Shown here: positions 1,524 to 56,461 of the stretch, one piece after another
Layout: each line of letters starts with the position of its first letter
How positions within the stretch are numbered: position 1 is the stretch's first letter
DNA from: Chloroflexota bacterium
GTDB lineage: Bacteria > Chloroflexota > UBA6077 > CF-72
Length of the DNA: 56,594 bases
NCBI GenBank assembly: GCA_019247515.1
Contig: JAFAOS010000182.1
Coordinates: 1 to 56,594 of the forward strand
Direction: 5' to 3'
Program-made: the position numbers and the translations under genes
The notes under the pieces: generated by a model
The model's database searches: none
Told to the model about the DNA's origin: nothing
The model's input: the letters and a program-made list of their open reading frames with translations, nothing else

Positions 1524-2258
1524 TCAGACCGCTCGAACTTCGGCAAGCCGCTTGACGGCGTACTCGTCATCCCAGCACACGGCGGCGGCCCATGCGGCCG
1601 ACGCTTGCGCGGCGATGTCGTACGCGCTGTCGTGGAGACCGGCGGCGTTGTGGGGCAGCACCAGGTCGAGGTCGGGGACGTCGACGTGCGACTCGTCCCA
1701 GTCGATCAGCGCGACACGGTCCGCGGTCATGCGGATGTTGCCCGGGTTGGGGTCGCCGTGGACGACGCACGTCTGACGTCCGGCGAGGCGCGCCCACGCC
1801 GCTCGACATCGAGCAACGCCCTCGGCCGGCATCGCCGCGAGGTCGACCTTCGTCCCGGTCTCGGCATGCAGGAGGTCGGTCGACGACCGCCAGCCCGGAC
1901 GCTGTGGCCAGCCCTGCGTCAACTGATGCAACTGGCGGAGCGTGTCGGCGACACGATGCCAGTCGGCCTCCGTCTCCGGCGGTCCGCCCTCCACGTAGGT
2001 CATCACCACCAGACCTTGGGCGAACAGCCGGCCTGCCCTCGTCGGGATGGGCACAGGCACAGTCAGCCCTTTGCGGTCGAGGTGTCGCAGCAGCTCCGTC
2101 TCCCACCGGAGGTCAGCGTCGCTGCGGGCGCCGAGACGACCGACCGCGAGATGCCCGTTGACGCGCACGCTCCACACCTGGTTGATGCCAACTCCGCCAG
2201 TGAGCGGTTCGAGACGAGCGACGCCGTCGCCCCAATGCTCGAGTGCCTCCCATCCCAC
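1524..2258 (-). CDS. APH-family phosphotransferase
   Basis: A 244-residue protein of the aminoglycoside phosphotransferase / choline kinase fold. The Brenner-type catalytic loop is VVHGDPNPGNI, with catalytic Asp and the following Asn. It is followed by the metal-binding motif ALIDWDES and the acidic segment DVPDLDLVLP. The N-terminal lobe has a glycine-rich GGVGINQVW turn and a hinge (VVMTYVEGG) like that of protein kinases. Such proteins phosphorylate small hydroxylated molecules, sometimes antibiotics, but substrate cannot be read from sequence. The gene stands alone on the reverse strand between a kinase relic and the M41-like gene. Confidence 0.8.
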   Translation of the reverse strand: MGWEALEHWGDGVARLEPLTGGVGINQVWSVRVNGHLAVGRLGARSDADLRWETELLRHLDRKGLTVPVPIPTRAGRLFAQGLVVMTYVEGGPPETEADWHRVADTLRQLHQLTQGWPQRPGWRSSTDLLHAETGTKVDLAAMPAEGVARCRAAWARLAGRQTCVVHGDPNPGNIRMTADRVALIDWDESHVDVPDLDLVLPHNAAGLHDSAYDIAAQASAAWAAAVCWDDEYAVKRLAEVRAV

Positions 2259-2493
2259 TGGCTACCTCTCCGCGCTTGGGAACATACAGACTATCCGGCT
2301 GGAGGGTAGCTGAAGCCGCCGTTTTAAGATGGGCGATTGCGAGCCCGCAATCTGGTGACCAGCCCCCGTTGCTCATTCTTCGCTCTAGCTCGGCACAGCC
2401 CGAGCAAGATCCCGCGACAGATCGATCAAAGTTGGACGCGGCCTATGCCAACGGAGCGGGTAACCCAGGCGCCGGTTCAGGTGACTCCTTCAC

Positions 2494-2510
2494 AGAAGGA
2501 GATCACCTTG
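2494..2510 (+). promoter_or_regulatory. strong Shine-Dalgarno deciding a TTG start
   Basis: The sequence AGAAGGAG (2494-2501) is followed by six bases and an in-frame TTG at 2508. No upstream ATG or GTG in this frame has a comparable site (ATG 2445 has none). Starting at 2508 also puts the HEAGH helix near residue 21, which fits an isolated M41-like domain better than the longer frame, whose extra residues look non-coding. Confidence 0.6.
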
Positions 2511-3005
2511 GTTACCCAAGAGCGCCTCGGCCACCTGGCCCAGTTCACCGACGAGCACCTGGCCTACCACGAGGCGGGCCACGCCGTTGTCCATCACCTG
2601 CAGGGCGGCACCATCGTCCGCTTGAGCATCGAGCGGACCGATCCAAAGGAAGGAATGCAACCTGCGGAACAGCTCACGGCGACAGGGAGTGCCGACCAGC
2701 TGAAGGCGTTGCGCGATCTGGTTGCGCTCCTGGTTGCGGGCGAGGTCGCCGCCACGATCCAGGGTGCGCCCGAGAGCGTCGTCAAGGCCGGCGGCAGAGT
2801 CGACCGAGAGCACGCCATCCGCCGCGCCGCCGAGACCGGCCTGGACGAAACCGCGGCGCATGCGATGATCGAAGCCGAGTGGCCCCATGTGCGCGACCGC
2901 CTGGAAGAGCCCGCCAACTGGAAGCTCGTCGACTCGCTCGCGCAACAGCTCGTGCGCCAGAAGGTGCTCGACGCCGACCAGATTCGGGCCACGCTCAATC
3001 CATGA
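2508..3005 (+). CDS. stand-alone M41-like zinc peptidase domain protein
   Basis: A 165-residue protein starting at TTG 2508. It carries the metallopeptidase signature AYHEAGHAVVHHLQGG (His21, Glu22, His25 from this start), then a strand and LVALLVAGEVAA. Further on is a short VDREHAIRRAA helix whose Asp99 sits where FtsH-type M41 peptidases place the third zinc ligand (GASNDxxRA in FtsH). There is no AAA ATPase domain and no membrane segment, unlike FtsH, so it is only the protease domain. The next gene, 22 bases downstream on the same strand, is an ECF sigma factor with a second copy of this domain fused at its C-terminus, so the two probably work together. Peptidase activity is inferred from the ligand set only. 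Confidence 0.75.
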   Translation: MVTQERLGHLAQFTDEHLAYHEAGHAVVHHLQGGTIVRLSIERTDPKEGMQPAEQLTATGSADQLKALRDLVALLVAGEVAATIQGAPESVVKAGGRVDREHAIRRAAETGLDETAAHAMIEAEWPHVRDRLEEPANWKLVDSLAQQLVRQKVLDADQIRATLNP

Positions 3006-3027
3006 GCAAACTGGCGCGTCAGCAAAC

Positions 3028-4041
3028 GTGAGCGGAGCGAGCGGCGACGAGTTGCTCGTACGACTCGCCCTCAGCGGTGACCGGGCGGCGTTCGGTGCAC
3101 TCGTCGCGCCGCACCTCACGGACCTGACGCGGCTGTGCCGACGCGTCGCCGGCCCGGAACTGGCGGAAGATTGCGTCCAGGACACGCTGCTGCTCGCGCT
3201 ACTGCGGCTGCCGAGCCTGCGCGATGCGGGTCTGTTCGAGCACTGGCTGCGTGGGATCGCGATCCGCGTCTGCCGCCGGACGCGGGCGCGCCTCGCACCG
3301 CACGCGCCGCTGCCATCCGAGGACGAGCAACTCGGCACCTGGCTCCTGGGACCCGGTCTGGCGCCGTCGCTCGACGAGATGCTCGTCGGCACCGACCTCG
3401 TGCGCAGCGTGCGCTCGGCGGTGGTCGACTTGCCTGCCGGCCAGCGACGCGCGGTCGAGCTGTTCTACCTGCGCGGTTTGTCGTATGAAGAGGCATCTGA
3501 CGCGCTCGGCATCCCGGTCGGCGCGCTGAAGACACGACTTCACAAGGCGCGCGCCACGCTCGCCGGCCACTACCGGCTGGACGACGGCCCGCGACCGTTG
3601 CGATTGGACGACCGCACGCTCTCGGTCCACGAGGCCGCGCACGCCGTGCTGGGCTGGCAGCAGGGAGATCGGGTGATGCGCGTTTCCATCACGCCGCACG
3701 CCGAAGCGAACCTTGGCATGGTTCATCTGGCGGACTCCCGCGGCATCGCCCCGGCGGCACGCCTTATCGCAGTCATGGCCGGTGAGGCCGGCGTAGCGCG
3801 CGCGTTGCCGCGCCGTTCGCGATCCGATTCTGGCGACCGTGCCGCCGCGGCCCGCATAGCCCGGGCGGCGACCGGCGGCGACGACGTGGAAAGCGCGCTC
3901 GCAATCACCAGCGGACTCGATGCTGCACGGCGCCGCCTGGAGGACCCAACGACGTGGTCGCTGCTTGAGCGGGTCGCCGGGGCGCTCGTCATCCGCCGGA
4001 CGCTCGACGCTGACGAGTTCCGTACGCTCGTTGCACGCTGA
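3028..4041 (+). CDS. ECF sigma factor fused to M41-like metallopeptidase domain
   Basis: A 337-residue protein from GTG 3028. Residues about 8-90 are sigma region 2 (LVRLALSGDRAAFGALV, then AEDCVQDTLLLALLRLP). Residues about 130-180 are region 4 (LPAGQRRAVELFYLRGLSYE, then IPVGALKTRLHKARATL), the usual ECF helix-turn-helix. From about residue 195 the chain continues with SVHEAAHAVLGWQQGDRVM (His201, Glu202, His205), the strand VSITP, MAGEAGVARAL and SGDRAAAARIARAA, where Asp270 matches the third ligand of M41 peptidases. This domain matches the neighbouring small protein in order and motifs. Known ECF extensions include SnoaL-like (ECF41) and TPR (ECF42) domains; an M41-like extension is not one I know. 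It could self-process, sense or release the sigma domain, or be a degenerate binding domain. No anti-sigma gene is adjacent. Confidence 0.8.
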   Translation: MSGASGDELLVRLALSGDRAAFGALVAPHLTDLTRLCRRVAGPELAEDCVQDTLLLALLRLPSLRDAGLFEHWLRGIAIRVCRRTRARLAPHAPLPSEDEQLGTWLLGPGLAPSLDEMLVGTDLVRSVRSAVVDLPAGQRRAVELFYLRGLSYEEASDALGIPVGALKTRLHKARATLAGHYRLDDGPRPLRLDDRTLSVHEAAHAVLGWQQGDRVMRVSITPHAEANLGMVHLADSRGIAPAARLIAVMAGEAGVARALPRRSRSDSGDRAAAARIARAATGGDDVESALAITSGLDAARRRLEDPTTWSLLERVAGALVIRRTLDADEFRTLVAR

Positions 4042-27872: not shown

Positions 27873-28376
27873 GTGAAGATCGCCGATCTCTCGAACCCGC
27901 TCATCGACATCGCTGGCCTGATGCTGATCGGCATCTTGCTCCTCGGGCAGGTCCGCGCACGACGCGTGAATGTTCGACGCCTGTGGCTCGTCCCACTCCT
28001 CATCATCATCCTGACCGGGCTCGTCATCGCCGAGAACCCGCCCAGGGACCTGTCCGGCTGGGGTTGGCTCGCGCTCGCGCTGGTCATCGGGCTCATAGTC
28101 GGCGCAGTACGCGTCGCCTTCACTGACGTACGACGTGTCGATCCAAAGACACGCGTCCTGCTCGTGCAAAGCACGTTCATCGGGCTCTTGCTCTGGCTCG
28201 TCATCTGGGCAGCGCGCATCATCATTCGCCAGGTCGTCGGACACACCGAGCCGGATGCCTCGACAGCCGCCTTGCTGACGGCGATCCTGCTGATGTTCGC
28301 CGCTGGCAACATCGTCGCTACTGCGTTTTCCACCTATCGCGCATATCTCAGCACCACGAGGAGTGTCGCATGGTAG
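27873..28376 (+). CDS. CcdC-like integral membrane protein
   Basis: A 167-residue protein from GTG 27873, GGAG seven bases upstream. About five hydrophobic helices are visible: IDIAGLMLIGILLLGQV, LWLVPLLIIILTGLVIA, GWLALALVIGLIVGAVRVAF, STFIGLLLWLVIWAARIII and ALLTAILLMFAAGNIVA. The layout and the basic loop RVRARRVNVRR are like CcdC/DUF1453 proteins. Its last codons overlap the start of the first P450 gene by seven bases (ATG at 28370, stop TAG 28374-28376), so translation is probably coupled. It may anchor or supply something to the P450 pair, but that is inference. Confidence 0.68.
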   Translation: MKIADLSNPLIDIAGLMLIGILLLGQVRARRVNVRRLWLVPLLIIILTGLVIAENPPRDLSGWGWLALALVIGLIVGAVRVAFTDVRRVDPKTRVLLVQSTFIGLLLWLVIWAARIIIRQVVGHTEPDASTAALLTAILLMFAAGNIVATAFSTYRAYLSTTRSVAW

Positions 28377-29815
28377 AGCACGAGACCTCGGCAGAGCTCG
28401 AGCCGATCCCTCAGCCACCCACGAAGCCCATCGTTGGCAACTTGTTCGACGTCGATCGGGGGGCACCTCTCGAAGACATCGTGCGTTTGGCCAACGAGTA
28501 TCGACCCATCTTCAGGCTCTCTCTCGGCAGTCGTGAGGCAGTCTTTGTCTCGGGCTTCGAGCTGGTCGATGAGCTGTGCGACATGCGGCGCTTCGACAAG
28601 CTCGTCGGCAGGGGACTCACGGAGGTGCGCGCGTTCGCCGGTGACGGCCTGTTCACCAGTCACACGGAAGAGCCCAACTGGCAAAAGGCGCACCGCATCC
28701 TGCTGCCCGCCTTCAGCCAGGACGCGATGCGCCAGTACTTCCCGATGATGCTCGACATCGCCATGCAGCTTGTCAAAAAGTGGGAGCGCTTGAACCGCGG
28801 CGAGGCGACCGACGTGACGCCCGATATGACCCGCCTGACCCTGGACACGATCGGACTGTGCGGCTTCAACTACCGCTTCAACTCGTTCTACCGCGAACGA
28901 CCCCACCCGTTCGTCGAGGCAATGACACGCTGCTTGAGCGAATCGATGCAACGCGCTGGCCGGCTGCGCATCCAGGAGCGGGCCGCCGTGCGCGAGGCCC
29001 GCCAGTTCGACGCGGACGTCGCGTCGATGAACGAGCTGGTCGATCGCATTGTCAAGGAGCGACGCGCCGAGATGGAGCGCACTGGCTCGGACCCCAGGCC
29101 CGATCTGCTTGGTCGCATGCTGACCGGCGTCGACCCGCAAAGCGGCGAGAGGCTGGACGACGTCAACATCCGTTATCAGATCATCACGTTTCTGATCGCT
29201 GGACACGAAACGACGAGCGGTCTGCTTTCTTTCTCACTGTACCTGTTGCTTCACCATCCGGAGGTCCTGAGCCGCGCATACGCGGAAGTTGATAGCGTGC
29301 TTGGGACAGAATCGGATGTGACGCCCACGTATGGGCAGGTTCACCAGCTGCGCTACGTGTCCCAGATCCTGCACGAAACACTGCGCCTGTATCCGACCGC
29401 CCCGGCCTTCAGCGTTCACCCGCTGGAGGCTACGGCGGTGATCGGTGGCCGGTACCGGCTGACGCGTGAGCGCGGCGCAACTATCGTGACTGCTGCGCTG
29501 CATCGCGATCCGAGCGTGTGGGGCAGCGATGCCGGCGAGTTCAACCCCGACCACTTCAGCCCTGAGGCCGCTCAGCAACGGCCCGCGAATGCGTACAAGC
29601 CCTTCGGCAACGGCCAGCGGGCATGCATTGGTCGCCAGTTTGCGTTGCTGGAGGCGTCGCTGGTGCTGGGCCTGATCCTCCAGCGCTTGGAACTGGTCGA
29701 CCACGATCACTACGAGCTCCGGATCAAGGAAACCCTCACGATTAAACCCGACGACTTCCGCATCCAGGTGAAGAAGCGCGCGCACCTGCGAGCACTCCAG
29801 GGAGCCACGGCGTGA
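28370..29815 (+). CDS. stand-alone CYP102-like cytochrome P450 heme domain
   Basis: A 481-residue P450 closely resembling the heme half of CYP102A1 (P450 BM3). It has the I-helix AGHETTSGLLSF, the K-helix EIxR-type HETLRLYPTAPAF, and the heme loop FGNGQRACIGRQFA with Cys419 as thiolate ligand. It also has BM3-like blocks DMTRLTLDTIGLCGFNYRFN and ITFLIAGHETTSG. BM3 Phe87 and the Arg47 equivalent appear kept (GLFTSHTEEPNW; GSREAVF), while the Tyr51 position looks like Phe. No linker or reductase follows, so it needs electrons from elsewhere. The next gene, overlapping by four bases (GTGA), is a complete P450-reductase fusion that could serve as the donor. Likely fatty-acid hydroxylase-type chemistry. 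Confidence 0.9.
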   Translation: MVEHETSAELEPIPQPPTKPIVGNLFDVDRGAPLEDIVRLANEYRPIFRLSLGSREAVFVSGFELVDELCDMRRFDKLVGRGLTEVRAFAGDGLFTSHTEEPNWQKAHRILLPAFSQDAMRQYFPMMLDIAMQLVKKWERLNRGEATDVTPDMTRLTLDTIGLCGFNYRFNSFYRERPHPFVEAMTRCLSESMQRAGRLRIQERAAVREARQFDADVASMNELVDRIVKERRAEMERTGSDPRPDLLGRMLTGVDPQSGERLDDVNIRYQIITFLIAGHETTSGLLSFSLYLLLHHPEVLSRAYAEVDSVLGTESDVTPTYGQVHQLRYVSQILHETLRLYPTAPAFSVHPLEATAVIGGRYRLTRERGATIVTAALHRDPSVWGSDAGEFNPDHFSPEAAQQRPANAYKPFGNGQRACIGRQFALLEASLVLGLILQRLELVDHDHYELRIKETLTIKPDDFRIQVKKRAHLRALQGATA

Positions 29816-32800
29816 CTCTCGAAGCCATTCCGCAACCCTCCGGTCGACCGGTCCTCGGCAACCTGCTCGATCTGTTGGGCGACACGCCCGTCCAGGCGAT
29901 GATGCAGCTAGCACGCGACCAGCACGACCTTTTTCAGCTCAGGATGCCGGGCAGGACAATCGTCGTTGCCTTCGGTCCGGCGGTTGTCGACGAGATCTGT
30001 GACGACACCCGCTTCGACAAGCTCGTCCAACTTCGCCGCGGTGGGCGCACGTCGATAGCCGGCGACGGGCTGTTCACGGCCTGGACGTATGAGCCCAACT
30101 GGCAAAAGGCCCACAACATCCTGCTGCCCAACTTCAGCCAGTCGGCGATGAAGGGCTACATGCCGTTAATGGTCGACCTGGCCAGTCAGCTCATGGACAA
30201 GTGGCAGCGCCAGAACCCTGGCGAGGCGGTCAACGTGCCGGACGACATGACGCGACTCACCCTCGACACGATCGGCCTGTGCGGCTTCGGCTATCGCTTC
30301 AACTCCTTCTATCGCGAGGATCAACATCCATTTGTTCAGGCGATGGCGCGAAGCCTGGAGGAGCAGCGCGAAAGCCAGACCCGCTTGCCAGGACAGACTG
30401 CGCTGATGGTCCGGCGGCGACGCCAGTTCCACGAAGACACGAGCACCATGTATAGCCTGGTGGACGAGTTGATTCGCGAGCGCAAAGCAGACACCGCCTC
30501 GGCGGAAGTCAACGACCTGCTTGGCCACATGCTGAGCGGCGTGGACCGGCAAACGGGCGAGAAGCTGGACGACGTCAACATCCGCTACCAGATCATCACT
30601 TTCCTGGTTGCGGGCCACGAGACCACCAGCGGCCTGCTGTCGTTCGCCGTTTACTACTTGCTGCGCAACCCGATTGTCCTGGCGCGCGCCTGCGACGAAG
30701 TCGACCGTGTCCTGGGCAGCGACCTGTCAGTCATGCCAACCTACGAGCAGATTCGCAAGCTGGACTACGTCGCCCAGGTGCTCAAGGAAACCTTGCGCCT
30801 GTGGCCAACGGCGCCGGGCTTTTCACGCTATCCGCTCGAGACTACCGTCGTCAGGGGCAAGTACCAGCTCGACAAGGGACAGGAAATTCTGGTCCTGACG
30901 CCAATGCTCCATCGTGACCTCGAGACCTGGGGTCCGAGCCCGGAGGCTTTCGACCCGGACCGGTTCACGCGCGAGGCCGAGCACAACCGCCCGGCCAATG
31001 TCTACAAGCCGTTCGGCGATGGCCAACGTGCTTGCATCGGGCGCCAGTTCGCGATGCAGGAAGCCACGCTAGTCCTGGGCATGCTCCTGCAGCGATTCGA
31101 GCTCATCGATTTCAATGGCTATCAGCTCAAGATCAAGGAGACGCTGACCGTCAAACCGGACGACTTTTTCATCCAGGTCCGCCCGCGCACCAGCCGCACC
31201 GAGACGGTGGTGGCGGACTCGCCGCCGATCGTAATCCCCGAGGTCGACGCTGAACCGGAGCCGTCCCCCGTCAGGGTCCAACACAGCACGCCACTCCTCG
31301 TCCTGTTCGGGTCCAACCTCGGCTCGACCGAAGACCTGGCTCGCCAGGTAGCCGCCGATGGTTCCGCGCGCGGCTTCGATGCCACTGTTGCGCCGCTGAA
31401 TGACTACGTCGAGCGGCTCCCGACGAACGGGGCAGTGGTCATTGCCACCGCTTCGTACAATGGCAACCCGCCCGACAACGCCGCGCGTTTCCTGGACTGG
31501 GCGACTGGCTCATCATTGGCGGCCGATGCTTTGAAGGGTGTGAAATACACCGTCTTCGGGTGCGGCAGTCGCGAGTGGGCCTCCACCTATCAAAAAGTGC
31601 CGACCATCATCGACGAGGAGCTCACGGCGCACGGGGCCGAGCGGGTCTACGCCCGCGGTGAGGGCGACACCAGCGACGACTTCGACGGCCAGTTCCGGAC
31701 CTGGTATGCGCCGCTCTGGCAAGCGCTGGCTAGCGCTGTTGGCGCTCCAGTCGACGGAACGGAAGCCACGGCCGGTCACCGCTACGAGGTCGTCGTGGCA
31801 GCGCCTCAGGAGGCCTCCGTCAGCAGCCCGTTCGGGGCCGAGTACGGTGCACGCGCCTTCAAGGTCCGCGTCAACCGCGAGCTGCACCGCAAGTCGGGGA
31901 GCAATCCGTCGCCGCGCTCCACCCGTCACATCGAAGTGGTACTGACAGACGGGGTCCAGTACCAACCAGGTGACTACCTGGGGGTGCTGCCTCGCAACGG
32001 CGACGAGCAGATCCGCCGCGTTGCGTCGCACTTCAAGCTCGATCCGAGCACTCGACTGAGGATTGTCAACAATAGCACCAGCAAGACTTTTCTGCCGGTG
32101 GACCAACCGGTCGACGTGGCAACGCTGCTCGGCAGCTACGTCGATGTGCAGGAAGTGGCCAGCCGGTCCCAGATCCAGGTGCTTGCCGAATACGCCGAGT
32201 GCCCGCCGGAGCAAACACGGCTGCTGACACTGGCTGGCGACGATCCCGAGAGTACGGCGCGGTATCGGACAGAGGTCCTGGATCGGCACATCTCGGTCAT
32301 CGATTTGCTCGAGGAGTTCCAGTCCTGCGCCCTGCCATTCAACATTTACCTGGAGTTCCTGCCGCCCCTGAAACCGCGCTACTACTCGATTTCGTCGTCG
32401 CCGATGGTCGATCCGCAAATCTGCAGCGTGACGGTTGGCGTGCTCGACACTCCGGCACGCTCCGGCCACGGCCAGTATCGTGGTGTGTGCTCCTGGTACC
32501 TGGCGCACCAGGACGCTGGAGCCGAAATCGATGCCTTCACCCGGAATCCGAGCACCCAATTCCGGCTGCCGGCTGATCCGGCCGCGCCGATCATCATGGT
32601 CGGCACCGGCACTGGCCTGGCGCCCTATCGCGGCTTCTTGCAGGAGCGCGCGGCGCTGCAGGCAAATGGGCAGTCGCTTGGTCCGGCCCTGCTGTTTTTT
32701 GGCTGCCGAAATCCCGAACAGGATTATTTGTATGAAGACGAGCTGCGCGGCTTCGAGCAGTCCGGCGTTGGGCAGGTGGTCTGCGCGTTCTCCCGCCTCG

Positions 32801-33048
32801 AGGGGCGGCCACGGACGTACGTCCAGGACGCTATCCAGTCCCGCGCCGACGATGTCTGGGCGCTGCTCGAACAGGGGGCAACGATCTACGTCTGCGGTGA
32901 CGCCAGCCGCATGGCGCCGGACGTTCGCGGAGCGTTCGCGGGGCTTTATCGACAGAAGTTGGGCCTCGAGGCGGCGACCGCCGACGCCCGACTGGCCGAG
33001 CTGGACGCCCAGCACCGCTACGTCGCCGATGTCTGGCCGTCTACCTGA
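29812..33048 (+). CDS. CYP102-type bifunctional P450/NADPH-P450 reductase
   Basis: A 1078-residue self-sufficient monooxygenase of the P450 BM3 type. Heme domain (1 to about 460): AGHETTSGLLSFAVY, FGDGQRACIGRQFA with Cys408 as iron ligand. FMN domain (about 495-645): LLVLFGSNLGSTEDLARQVA, IATASYNGNPPDNA, YTVFGCGSREWASTYQKVP. FAD/NADPH domains: KPRYYSISSSPMVDP, IIMVGTGTGLAPYRGFLQER, LLFFGCRNPEQDYLYEDEL and the C-terminal VADVWPST with the aromatic residue that stacks on FAD. Such enzymes hydroxylate medium- and long-chain fatty acids using NADPH and oxygen. GTG 29812 overlaps the stop of the preceding P450. The heme domains are clearly paralogous, so a duplication made this operon. Confidence 0.95.
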   Translation: MTLEAIPQPSGRPVLGNLLDLLGDTPVQAMMQLARDQHDLFQLRMPGRTIVVAFGPAVVDEICDDTRFDKLVQLRRGGRTSIAGDGLFTAWTYEPNWQKAHNILLPNFSQSAMKGYMPLMVDLASQLMDKWQRQNPGEAVNVPDDMTRLTLDTIGLCGFGYRFNSFYREDQHPFVQAMARSLEEQRESQTRLPGQTALMVRRRRQFHEDTSTMYSLVDELIRERKADTASAEVNDLLGHMLSGVDRQTGEKLDDVNIRYQIITFLVAGHETTSGLLSFAVYYLLRNPIVLARACDEVDRVLGSDLSVMPTYEQIRKLDYVAQVLKETLRLWPTAPGFSRYPLETTVVRGKYQLDKGQEILVLTPMLHRDLETWGPSPEAFDPDRFTREAEHNRPANVYKPFGDGQRACIGRQFAMQEATLVLGMLLQRFELIDFNGYQLKIKETLTVKPDDFFIQVRPRTSRTETVVADSPPIVIPEVDAEPEPSPVRVQHSTPLLVLFGSNLGSTEDLARQVAADGSARGFDATVAPLNDYVERLPTNGAVVIATASYNGNPPDNAARFLDWATGSSLAADALKGVKYTVFGCGSREWASTYQKVPTIIDEELTAHGAERVYARGEGDTSDDFDGQFRTWYAPLWQALASAVGAPVDGTEATAGHRYEVVVAAPQEASVSSPFGAEYGARAFKVRVNRELHRKSGSNPSPRSTRHIEVVLTDGVQYQPGDYLGVLPRNGDEQIRRVASHFKLDPSTRLRIVNNSTSKTFLPVDQPVDVATLLGSYVDVQEVASRSQIQVLAEYAECPPEQTRLLTLAGDDPESTARYRTEVLDRHISVIDLLEEFQSCALPFNIYLEFLPPLKPRYYSISSSPMVDPQICSVTVGVLDTPARSGHGQYRGVCSWYLAHQDAGAEIDAFTRNPSTQFRLPADPAAPIIMVGTGTGLAPYRGFLQERAALQANGQSLGPALLFFGCRNPEQDYLYEDELRGFEQSGVGQVVCAFSRLEGRPRTYVQDAIQSRADDVWALLEQGATIYVCGDASRMAPDVRGAFAGLYRQKLGLEAATADARLAELDAQHRYVADVWPST

Positions 33049-54430: not shown

Positions 54431-56461
54431 TCAGTGCGACTCCAACTCGAGCTCCCGCAGCGCGTAGCCGATGGCCCGCGGTGTTGGTAGCGCGGCACCT
54501 TGCAGCCACAGGTCGGCGAATGTTCGTTCGTCCAGTGCGGCTCGTACCACGGCGACATCACGCGCGTATGCCGCTTCGTCGGGTTGGAAACGATGGGCTC
54601 CGCTGGTCCGCCAGTGTGTGTCGGCGGCGCCGAACAGCCGGACGGCGCGGCCCACGTTCCCCTGCATCCCCTCCAGCGCAGCCTGAAAGTCGAGGCAATC
54701 GGCCAGTGCCTGGCCCGTCAGCCGCGCCTCGCGGATCACCTCGAACGCGTGCCGCAAGCTGGCCGTAGCCCGCGGGAAATCATGCTGGAGGCTGGCCGTG
54801 CGGCCGAGGCACGACAGCGAGCGCGCCTGCGTGTAGCCGCGGAACCAGCCGCTCGGCAGGGGGTGCGCAGCGGACTCGGCGAACAACGCTGCGGCGCGCG
54901 CATAGTCGCCCTGCGAGCGCGCCACCAGGCCGAGGTTGCGCTGGCAGACCACTACGGTGTGAGCGAGGTTTGCGGCTCGGCTGCGCTCCAGAGCTTCCTG
55001 CAACAGTTCGGTTGCCTGCAGCGCGTCACCCGCCACCCACTCGGCGAGTCCCTGGTTGGCCAGGCTGACGGCCAGCGGGGGGCCGTGGCCCAGCTCGCGC
55101 CAGAGCGCCACACTGGCTCGATGGAAGGTTCGTGCCTGCTCGTTGTCGCCCTGAAAACTGGCCAGTGTTCCGGCCTCGGTGAGGGCCACCGCCCGTTCGG
55201 CCCGAAACTCGGAAGGCTGGGTCGTCCTGTCGGCGAGGTCCAGGAGGGTTTCCAGCCGGCGACGTCCTTCGGCGTACTGCCCGAGGCGCGCCCAGAAGGA
55301 ATTGAGGGTGACCGCGATCTGCAGGCCTGCCGCGATATGGCGTTCGGCGATCAACCAGTCGAGCGCCGTGTTCAGATTGTCGAAGTCACCATCGAGCCGA
55401 TCGAGCACCTGGTGCGTCGATTCCGGCGACTCGACCCAGACCCATGGCCAGGTCGTCGGCGTGGCGCCGGCCGGCGTTGCCACCGATGCGTAGAACTGCG
55501 CATGGCGCGCTCGAATGTGCTCGAACTCACCAGCGAGGAGGAGCTGCTCGCCGGCATACTCGCGCACGGTTTCCAGCATCCCGATGCGCGAGCGGCGGTC
55601 CCCCTCGCCCAACCAACGCACCAGGCTGCTGTCCATCAGCTCTTGAAGACAATCGAGCACGTCGGCGGCGGGCAGGTCTGCATCCGCGCAGACCGTTTCG
55701 GCGGCCTGGAGTGTCCAGCCCGCCGTGAAGACCGCCAGCCGACGGAAAACCACCTGGGTGACGGGATCGAGCAAGTTGTGGCTCCACGCCAGAGTCGCGC
55801 GGAGCGTCTGCTGTCGCTGAGGCAGGTCGGTGGCTCCGCCCGTTAGCAGCGGCAGGCGGCGCTCCAGGCGCGCGAGCAATGCCTCCGGACGGAGCAGAGA
55901 GACGCGGGCCGCCGCCAGTTCAATAGCCAGAGGTATCCCCTCCAGCCGTCTGCAGATGTCGGCAACAGCCCCCGCATTGTCGTCACTGAGCGCAAACTCC
56001 GCGGCCACTGCCTGTGCTCGATCGACGAACAGCTGCACTGCCGCCGAGGTGCTTACTGATTCCTCGTTAGCGTCGGAGGCGACTGCGGGCGTGGCGAGTG
56101 GCGAAACCGCGAAGCGGTGCTCCCCCTGCACGTGCAGTGGCGCGCGGCTCGTTACCAGCGCCGCGACATGCGGGCACCGCTGGAGCAGGTCGGACACCAG
56201 CGGCGCCGCCGCCAACAGGTGCTCGAAGTTGTCCAGCACGAGCAACACGCGTCGGTCGCGCAAGTAGTCAAGCAGCAGCTCACGCGCGCTGCGCCCACCA
56301 CCTTCCCGCACGCCAAGCGTCCGTCCGATGGTCGCCGGCACCAGCCGCGGGTCGCGCAGGGGTGCCAGGTCGGCGAAGGCCAACCCATCGGTGTAGTCCT
56401 CCGCCAGGGCGGCGGCCACTGCCAGCGCCAGACGGGTCTTGCCCACCCCGCCGGGCCGCAC
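54431..56461 (-). CDS. NB-ARC-TPR regulator, N-terminus missing
   Basis: A 676-codon frame whose first possible start (GTG 56461) falls inside the Walker A motif: it reads RPGGVGKTRLALAVAAALAE where the family has TGPGGVGKTR. Walker B (RRVLLVLDNFEHLL), the TSRAPLHVQGEHRFAV sensor, LRATLAWSHNLLDPVTQVVF and a long TPR array all follow. Upstream, this frame reaches a TGA about 40 bases away and no frame in 56462-56594 encodes the expected DNA-binding part or the LVGRE strand. So the 5' end was lost at a junction, or a frameshift lies right there. It is a paralogue of the regulator at 20903-23374 and is probably not a working DNA-binding protein as it stands. Confidence 0.78.
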   Translation of the reverse strand: MRPGGVGKTRLALAVAAALAEDYTDGLAFADLAPLRDPRLVPATIGRTLGVREGGGRSARELLLDYLRDRRVLLVLDNFEHLLAAAPLVSDLLQRCPHVAALVTSRAPLHVQGEHRFAVSPLATPAVASDANEESVSTSAAVQLFVDRAQAVAAEFALSDDNAGAVADICRRLEGIPLAIELAAARVSLLRPEALLARLERRLPLLTGGATDLPQRQQTLRATLAWSHNLLDPVTQVVFRRLAVFTAGWTLQAAETVCADADLPAADVLDCLQELMDSSLVRWLGEGDRRSRIGMLETVREYAGEQLLLAGEFEHIRARHAQFYASVATPAGATPTTWPWVWVESPESTHQVLDRLDGDFDNLNTALDWLIAERHIAAGLQIAVTLNSFWARLGQYAEGRRRLETLLDLADRTTQPSEFRAERAVALTEAGTLASFQGDNEQARTFHRASVALWRELGHGPPLAVSLANQGLAEWVAGDALQATELLQEALERSRAANLAHTVVVCQRNLGLVARSQGDYARAAALFAESAAHPLPSGWFRGYTQARSLSCLGRTASLQHDFPRATASLRHAFEVIREARLTGQALADCLDFQAALEGMQGNVGRAVRLFGAADTHWRTSGAHRFQPDEAAYARDVAVVRAALDERTFADLWLQGAALPTPRAIGYALRELELESH

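Follow-up and report, generated by a model that had tools for sequence, protein, structure and literature searches.

The window, a stretch of 56,594 nucleotides from a Chloroflexota bacterium, carries a gene (gene B) coding for an ECF sigma factor whose carboxyl terminus is an M41-like peptidase domain, and directly upstream of it a gene (gene A) coding for a free copy of that domain. Read from the sequences compared, this sigma-M41 pair is real, old and recurrent, and it has a conserved putative promoter. The domain kinship, the conserved site, the pairing and the confinement of the promoter-like element to these loci are supported directly. The features of the pair are:

2458..2487, forward strand: promoter-like element GGGTAACCC-N14-GTGACTC, conserved across loci
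2496..2501, forward strand: ribosome-binding site AAGGAG of gene A, from the sequence
2508..3005, forward strand: gene A, free M41-like domain of 165 amino acids, start TTG at 2508, stop TGA at 3005
2568-2582, forward strand: codons of HEAGH (residues 21-25) in gene A
2802-2804, forward strand: codon of Asp99 in gene A
3002..3031, forward strand: A-B junction, with ATGA at the stop of A, a nine-codon frame, and GTGA over the start of B
3028..4041, forward strand: gene B, ECF sigma factor with carboxyl-terminal M41-like domain, 337 amino acids, start GTG at 3028, stop TGA at 4041
3100..3288, forward strand: sigma region 2 of gene B, residues 25-87 (Pfam PF04542, 30.7 bits)
3409..3561, forward strand: sigma region 4 of gene B, residues 128-178 (Pfam PF08281, 48.8 bits)
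3574..3597, forward strand: short linker of gene B, residues 183-190, from the structure model; candidate cut site
3598..4038, forward strand: fused M41-like domain of gene B, residues 191-337
3628-3642, forward strand: codons of HEAAH (residues 201-205) in gene B
3835-3837, forward strand: codon of Asp270 in gene B

The sigma part of gene B has the ECF layout, with regions 2 and 4 only, both above curated cut-offs (30.7 bits against 24 for PF04542 and 48.8 against 25.7 for PF08281). The protein also passes the TIGR02937 sigma70-ECF model (54.9 against 42.9), in agreement with an earlier note on this DNA that had described the two regions as intact. Among proteins of solved structure, those closest to it in sequence are SigW, RpoE and further ECF factors. 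Gene B is an ECF sigma factor with predicted sigma activity. In a 34-row alignment of B the stretch joining regions 2 and 4 varies and shows no conserved cut site, a point against the explanation favoured below.

The carboxyl-terminal domain of gene B (residues 191-337) and most of gene A match PF01434 (M41) at 17-21 bits, under the 29.9 cut-off; the M41 kinship needed other proof and the domains are named M41-like. In the PF01434 check proposed in the earlier note, the score thereby fell short of the cut-off. The note's assignment to an FtsH/M41 fold is upheld by three methods that agree: fold comparison, in which both domains match the FtsH peptidase fold, profile-profile comparison with FtsH (97.5% and 96.9%), and a profile search of the PDB. 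The profile-profile comparison aligns Asp270 of gene B and Asp99 of gene A to the same FtsH Asp, which we take to be the third zinc ligand of FtsH. The residues that had been singled out in the two genes, HEAAH 201-205 with Asp270 and HEAGH with Asp99, make up complete zinc-site residues in both copies. Fold matches other than FtsH are 5iqj, a protein of unknown function, for the domain and SpoIVFB for gene A. The M78 / IrrE-ImmA fold is absent among the fold matches listed, whose top rows are FtsH, an absence that is uninformative.

The resemblance to FtsH, AFG3L2 and YME1 comprises the fold, HExxH with a later Asp, and the carboxyl-terminal helical half. Unlike FtsH, which has an AAA+ module and a membrane anchor on one chain, gp A and gp B have no Pfam match to an AAA family and no membrane-like stretch, they lie under the Pfam cut-off, and they are fused to a sigma factor or encoded beside one.

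The site is strongly conserved. HExxH...D, the catalytic Glu included, is complete in 48 of the 52 best homologues of B (P0001-P0052); of the other four, P0033, P0037 and P0050 are too short over the site and P0046 is a chimera. The latter is likely a recombinant, with a sigma part followed by an end that by eye resembles the APH-type neighbour in the window (1524-2258). Homologues of A have the complete site in 48 of 57 cases, the remainder being seven sequences incomplete over the site, P0170, which has Thr and looks frame-shifted, and P0173, which hardly aligns. Another likely recombinant, P0140, starts like the free copy and ends like the fused one. Fused homologues of full length retain the site at identities between 88% and 42%, and His, Glu, His and Asp are invariant in the 34-row alignment together with Gly252, Glu253 and Arg271. 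The catalytic Glu would be dispensable for a scaffold and yet is conserved, which favours an enzyme; the conserved site favours both A and the fused domain as predicted enzymes.

Genes A and B are separated in the window by 22 bases, spanned by the nine-codon frame that runs from ATGA to GTGA. The sigma GTG overlaps the TGA of A directly in four other loci (L105, L106, L107, L108), and in L109 the sigma start lies a few bases past the stop of A. From this arrangement of stops and starts, translational coupling of A and B at 3002..3031 is likely.

In six of the seven loci aligned, G025 being the exception, the element upstream of A reads (C)GGGTAACCC-N14-RTGACTC at constant spacing. Its hexamers, GTAACC at 2460-2465 and TGACTC at 2482-2487, are 16 bases apart and look like a sigma-dependent promoter, from which we infer that gene B makes its own operon. 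ECF promoters have an AAC-type -35. The sigma factor of gene B would be the one reading the element at 2458..2487, which could possibly also be the site of another factor. The exact pattern has six matches over 400 genomes of the phylum, all before A and confined to the four genomes that have the fusion, and none in the reversed control. With one mismatch allowed, these four genomes give 30 matches versus 33 in the reversed control (G000 11 versus 20, G229 8 versus 3, G300 8 versus 7, G328 3 versus 3), and no wider regulon appears. A shorter pattern has a single further exact match in eight genomes scanned, at G000:C550 24502-24530; it lacks the outer bases and precedes a gene looking by eye like RNase PH. 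The exact motif is also present in eight stretches of viral contigs, none with an A- or B-like frame alongside in the stretch examined, and these occurrences are taken as chance.

The phylum was sampled with 400 genomes, which were searched with a profile of B, five candidates being scored in each. Among the matches listed, four reach the end of the M41 domain: G000 (the genome of the window), G229, G300 and G328. A profile of A (E 1e-10, nine candidates scored per genome) finds the same four of the 400 genomes and no others. These genomes fall in two families and A is directly upstream of B in 4/4, so that the pairing does recur in Chloroflexota, as the earlier note had supposed. The distances within A and within B correlate over 11 pairs, four linked directly and seven indirectly, through equal length of the longest contig (r 0.937, 0/5000 permutations); an eighth indirect pair with a partial A was left out. 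Such co-divergence is expected for partners or for plain co-inheritance alike. A tree of 72 rows separates a group of 35 fused domains, with moderate support (86/86), from one of 28 free domains (97/93). FtsH and a split copy fall outside both groups, the place of the split copy being unsure owing to long branches.

This split copy is found in G025, where an M41-like gene and a sigma gene without the domain overlap or abut, depending on which start is taken; here the pairing exists unfused. A search with the G025 domain has matches in 8/400 genomes; in G171, G284 and G359, which were new in this search, the stretches examined have no sigma factor like that of B. Stand-alone M41-like frames, with no B-like sigma in the stretch examined, are present in L110 (G089:C41, 6421-6924), L171, L172 and L173; the L110 frame passes the Pfam M41 cut-off with 48.7 bits. 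A scan of genome contigs gave at least 24 loci, of which L042 carries the fusion and L048 is a solo-A locus; each of the remaining 22 matches the domain in part only and is probably FtsH. Two further loci, L105 (G229:C30, 6920-8160) and L107 (G300:C176, 1025-1896), have the promoter-like element and an intact A followed by sigma genes that stop matching at about residue 132 or 51; each is a second locus, with an intact pair elsewhere in the same genome. The retention of promoter and A beside a broken sigma gene suggests that A may act without a linked sigma factor. Gp A may be a target as well, or act on its own, which counts partly against the explanation favoured below.

Of the eight neighbouring proteins that were scanned, three match no Pfam family; the other five are a methyltransferase, an APH-type phosphotransferase, a UPF0158 protein, a mandelate-racemase-type enzyme and an FAD oxidoreductase. 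No anti-sigma family was recognised among these eight, in line with the earlier observation that no anti-sigma gene is visible, but an unrecognised anti-sigma is possible among the three proteins without a Pfam family. The loci compared share no conserved third gene adjoining the pair, only scattered paralogues. Elsewhere in the window, 28370-33048 holds two adjoining cytochrome P450 genes, of which the second carries a fused flavodoxin/FAD/NAD reductase, and 54431-56461 (minus strand) belongs to a very large paralogue family with 31 matches in G145 and 16 in G300 at E 1e-20 or better. The bin of the window contig has 6% estimated contamination. The intact pair is absent from the two genus mates of the window genome, one of which, G145, has only a remnant (L104, G145:C417, 5951-6421), a 157-amino-acid frame that lacks HExxH and whose second half resembles the fused M41 domain in its carboxyl-terminal half; the contig could possibly have been transferred or mis-binned. 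The pair is found in three other genomes and its reality is unaffected by the origin of this contig.

The explanation we favour, to which we give not quite an even chance, is that gene B (ECF sigma factor plus M41-like domain) and gene A (free copy) would be co-made from a self-recognised promoter and that their paired M41 domains would replace an anti-sigma factor. The sigma factor of gene B would drive its own A-B operon, and gp A would dock on the M41 domain of gp B, in the way that the M41 domains of an FtsH ring lie against one another. The A-B complex would hold the sigma factor inactive until, upon a signal, the protease cuts the linker at about residues 183-190, or the sigma part itself, ending the restraint; freshly made gp A would provide feedback. 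The absence of membrane-like stretches in both proteins suggests that any signal is probably cytoplasmic. An M41-like domain without AAA motor could probably cut only a flexible peptide. In the structure model of the fusion, pLDDT is below 50 at residues 187-190 of the linker; the pTM of this model is 0.48 and its inter-domain contact is not reliable. More tentatively, the sigma factor could be its own protease: an active M41 peptidase within its own chain and a free twin made along with it would form a switch free of membrane and anti-sigma, in which M41-M41 pairing holds the sigma factor, proteolysis in cis or in trans fires the response or ends it, and the promoter is self-read.

ECF factors with known carboxyl-terminal extensions are like gp B in having an additional domain after regions 2 and 4 and no anti-sigma recognised nearby. 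What extends them, unlike gp B, is a SnoaL, TPR or Cys-rich domain and not a peptidase, and a free copy of the extension, such as gene A encodes here, is not described in the available part of PMC8999054. ECF41 and ECF42 are controlled by such domains, SnoaL in ECF41 and ECF56 and TPR in ECF42 (PMC8999054, in part). The extension of gp B has the M41 fold and no Pfam match to SnoaL or TPR. Proteolysis of the sigma chain sets the activity of IutY (ECF243), activated by removal of its extension, and of AntA (ECF282), whose sigma factor is removed by ClpXP, as in our proposal; unlike what is proposed for gp B, they are cut by proteases on other chains (Prc and RseP; ClpXP) (PMC8999054, in part). 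In ECF54, whose factors have no anti-sigma, genes for peptidases likewise lie near the ECF factor, but those peptidases are carboxypeptidase, subtilase and CHAT rather than M41, and the available part of PMC8999054 describes no fusion. In IrrE-DdrO a soluble zinc peptidase likewise serves one transcription regulator; in contrast to A and B, it belongs to another family (M78), cuts a repressor, and the two are separate proteins (PMC7593790, in part).

An alternative that we consider unlikely is that the M41 domain is an ordinary enzyme, brought to RNA polymerase by the sigma factor, and would cut a third protein such as a repressor or an unlinked inhibitor, gp A being its soluble form and an output of the sigma factor. 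The catalytic Glu retained in both copies and the intact A behind the same promoter in the two broken-sigma loci fit this possibility. It leaves the strict A-B pairing and coupling unexplained, and the loci compared offer no conserved third gene beside the pair as a substrate.

We hold it doubtful, too, that the domain is a non-cutting module binding zinc or a peptide, with gp A as binding partner, like the SnoaL and TPR extensions of ECF41 and ECF42. Known carboxyl-terminal extensions do act by shape change or protein contact (PMC8999054, in part), and no AAA motor is fused to the M41-like domain. Sigma factors related to gp B also have other domains in the same place: a bifunctional nuclease (PF02577) in L112, P0053 and P0064, ankyrin repeats after region 4 in P0061, and a DsbA/thioredoxin-like domain after region 4 in P0105, so that this type of sigma factor seems to gain carboxyl-terminal domains repeatedly. 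L112 (G225:C142, 7368-8600) is found in a genome of the window's own genus; L112 and P0053 are ECF-like factors resembling gp B in having an enzyme-type domain in this place, though of nuclease type and not M41, and the literature searched has no mention of a sigma factor combined with a bifunctional nuclease. A binding module would not need the catalytic Glu, which is retained wherever the fused site is complete (48/52, the other four having no site).

It is improbable that A and B form a self-promoting passenger, as a mobile or addictive unit that moves between lineages and transcribes mainly itself. Its spread is patchy (4/400 genomes in two families, among the matches listed), the flanks differ between loci, and the motif is seen at its own loci only, with no wider regulon. 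Phages, however, have no match to A; 260 plasmid records match but none covers 80% of B, the best eight of the 260 matching over the sigma part; no PADLOC family was found, and no mobile-element gene was recognised in the eight neighbours scanned. That the fusion is an artefact, the Pfam score under the cut-off notwithstanding, is scarcely credible: the separate grouping of fused (86/86) and free (97/93) domains, with fused homologues down to 42% identity, rejects the recent loss of a stop codon separating a sigma gene from the domain gene next to it, which the earlier note had considered, and a chance HExxH is ruled out by the FtsH fold, the profile comparison, the PDB search and the conservation of the site.

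No sigma-M41 fusion was found in the literature searched, which did not cover the group list of the ECF re-classification. As the extension of an otherwise known kind of regulator, the M41-like domain is of a new type. In the classical relay, a signal leads through a protease and an anti-sigma factor to the sigma factor, proteases and ECF sigma factors being separate parts. Here one protein unites a protease-like domain with a sigma factor and has a free partner dedicated to it, and there is a defined candidate promoter. If its working is as proposed, only two cytoplasmic proteins would be left of the relay, and control of a sigma factor by a protease of its own would be open to experiment. 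If the paired domains do replace the usual inhibitor protein, this would be a novel mode of sigma control.
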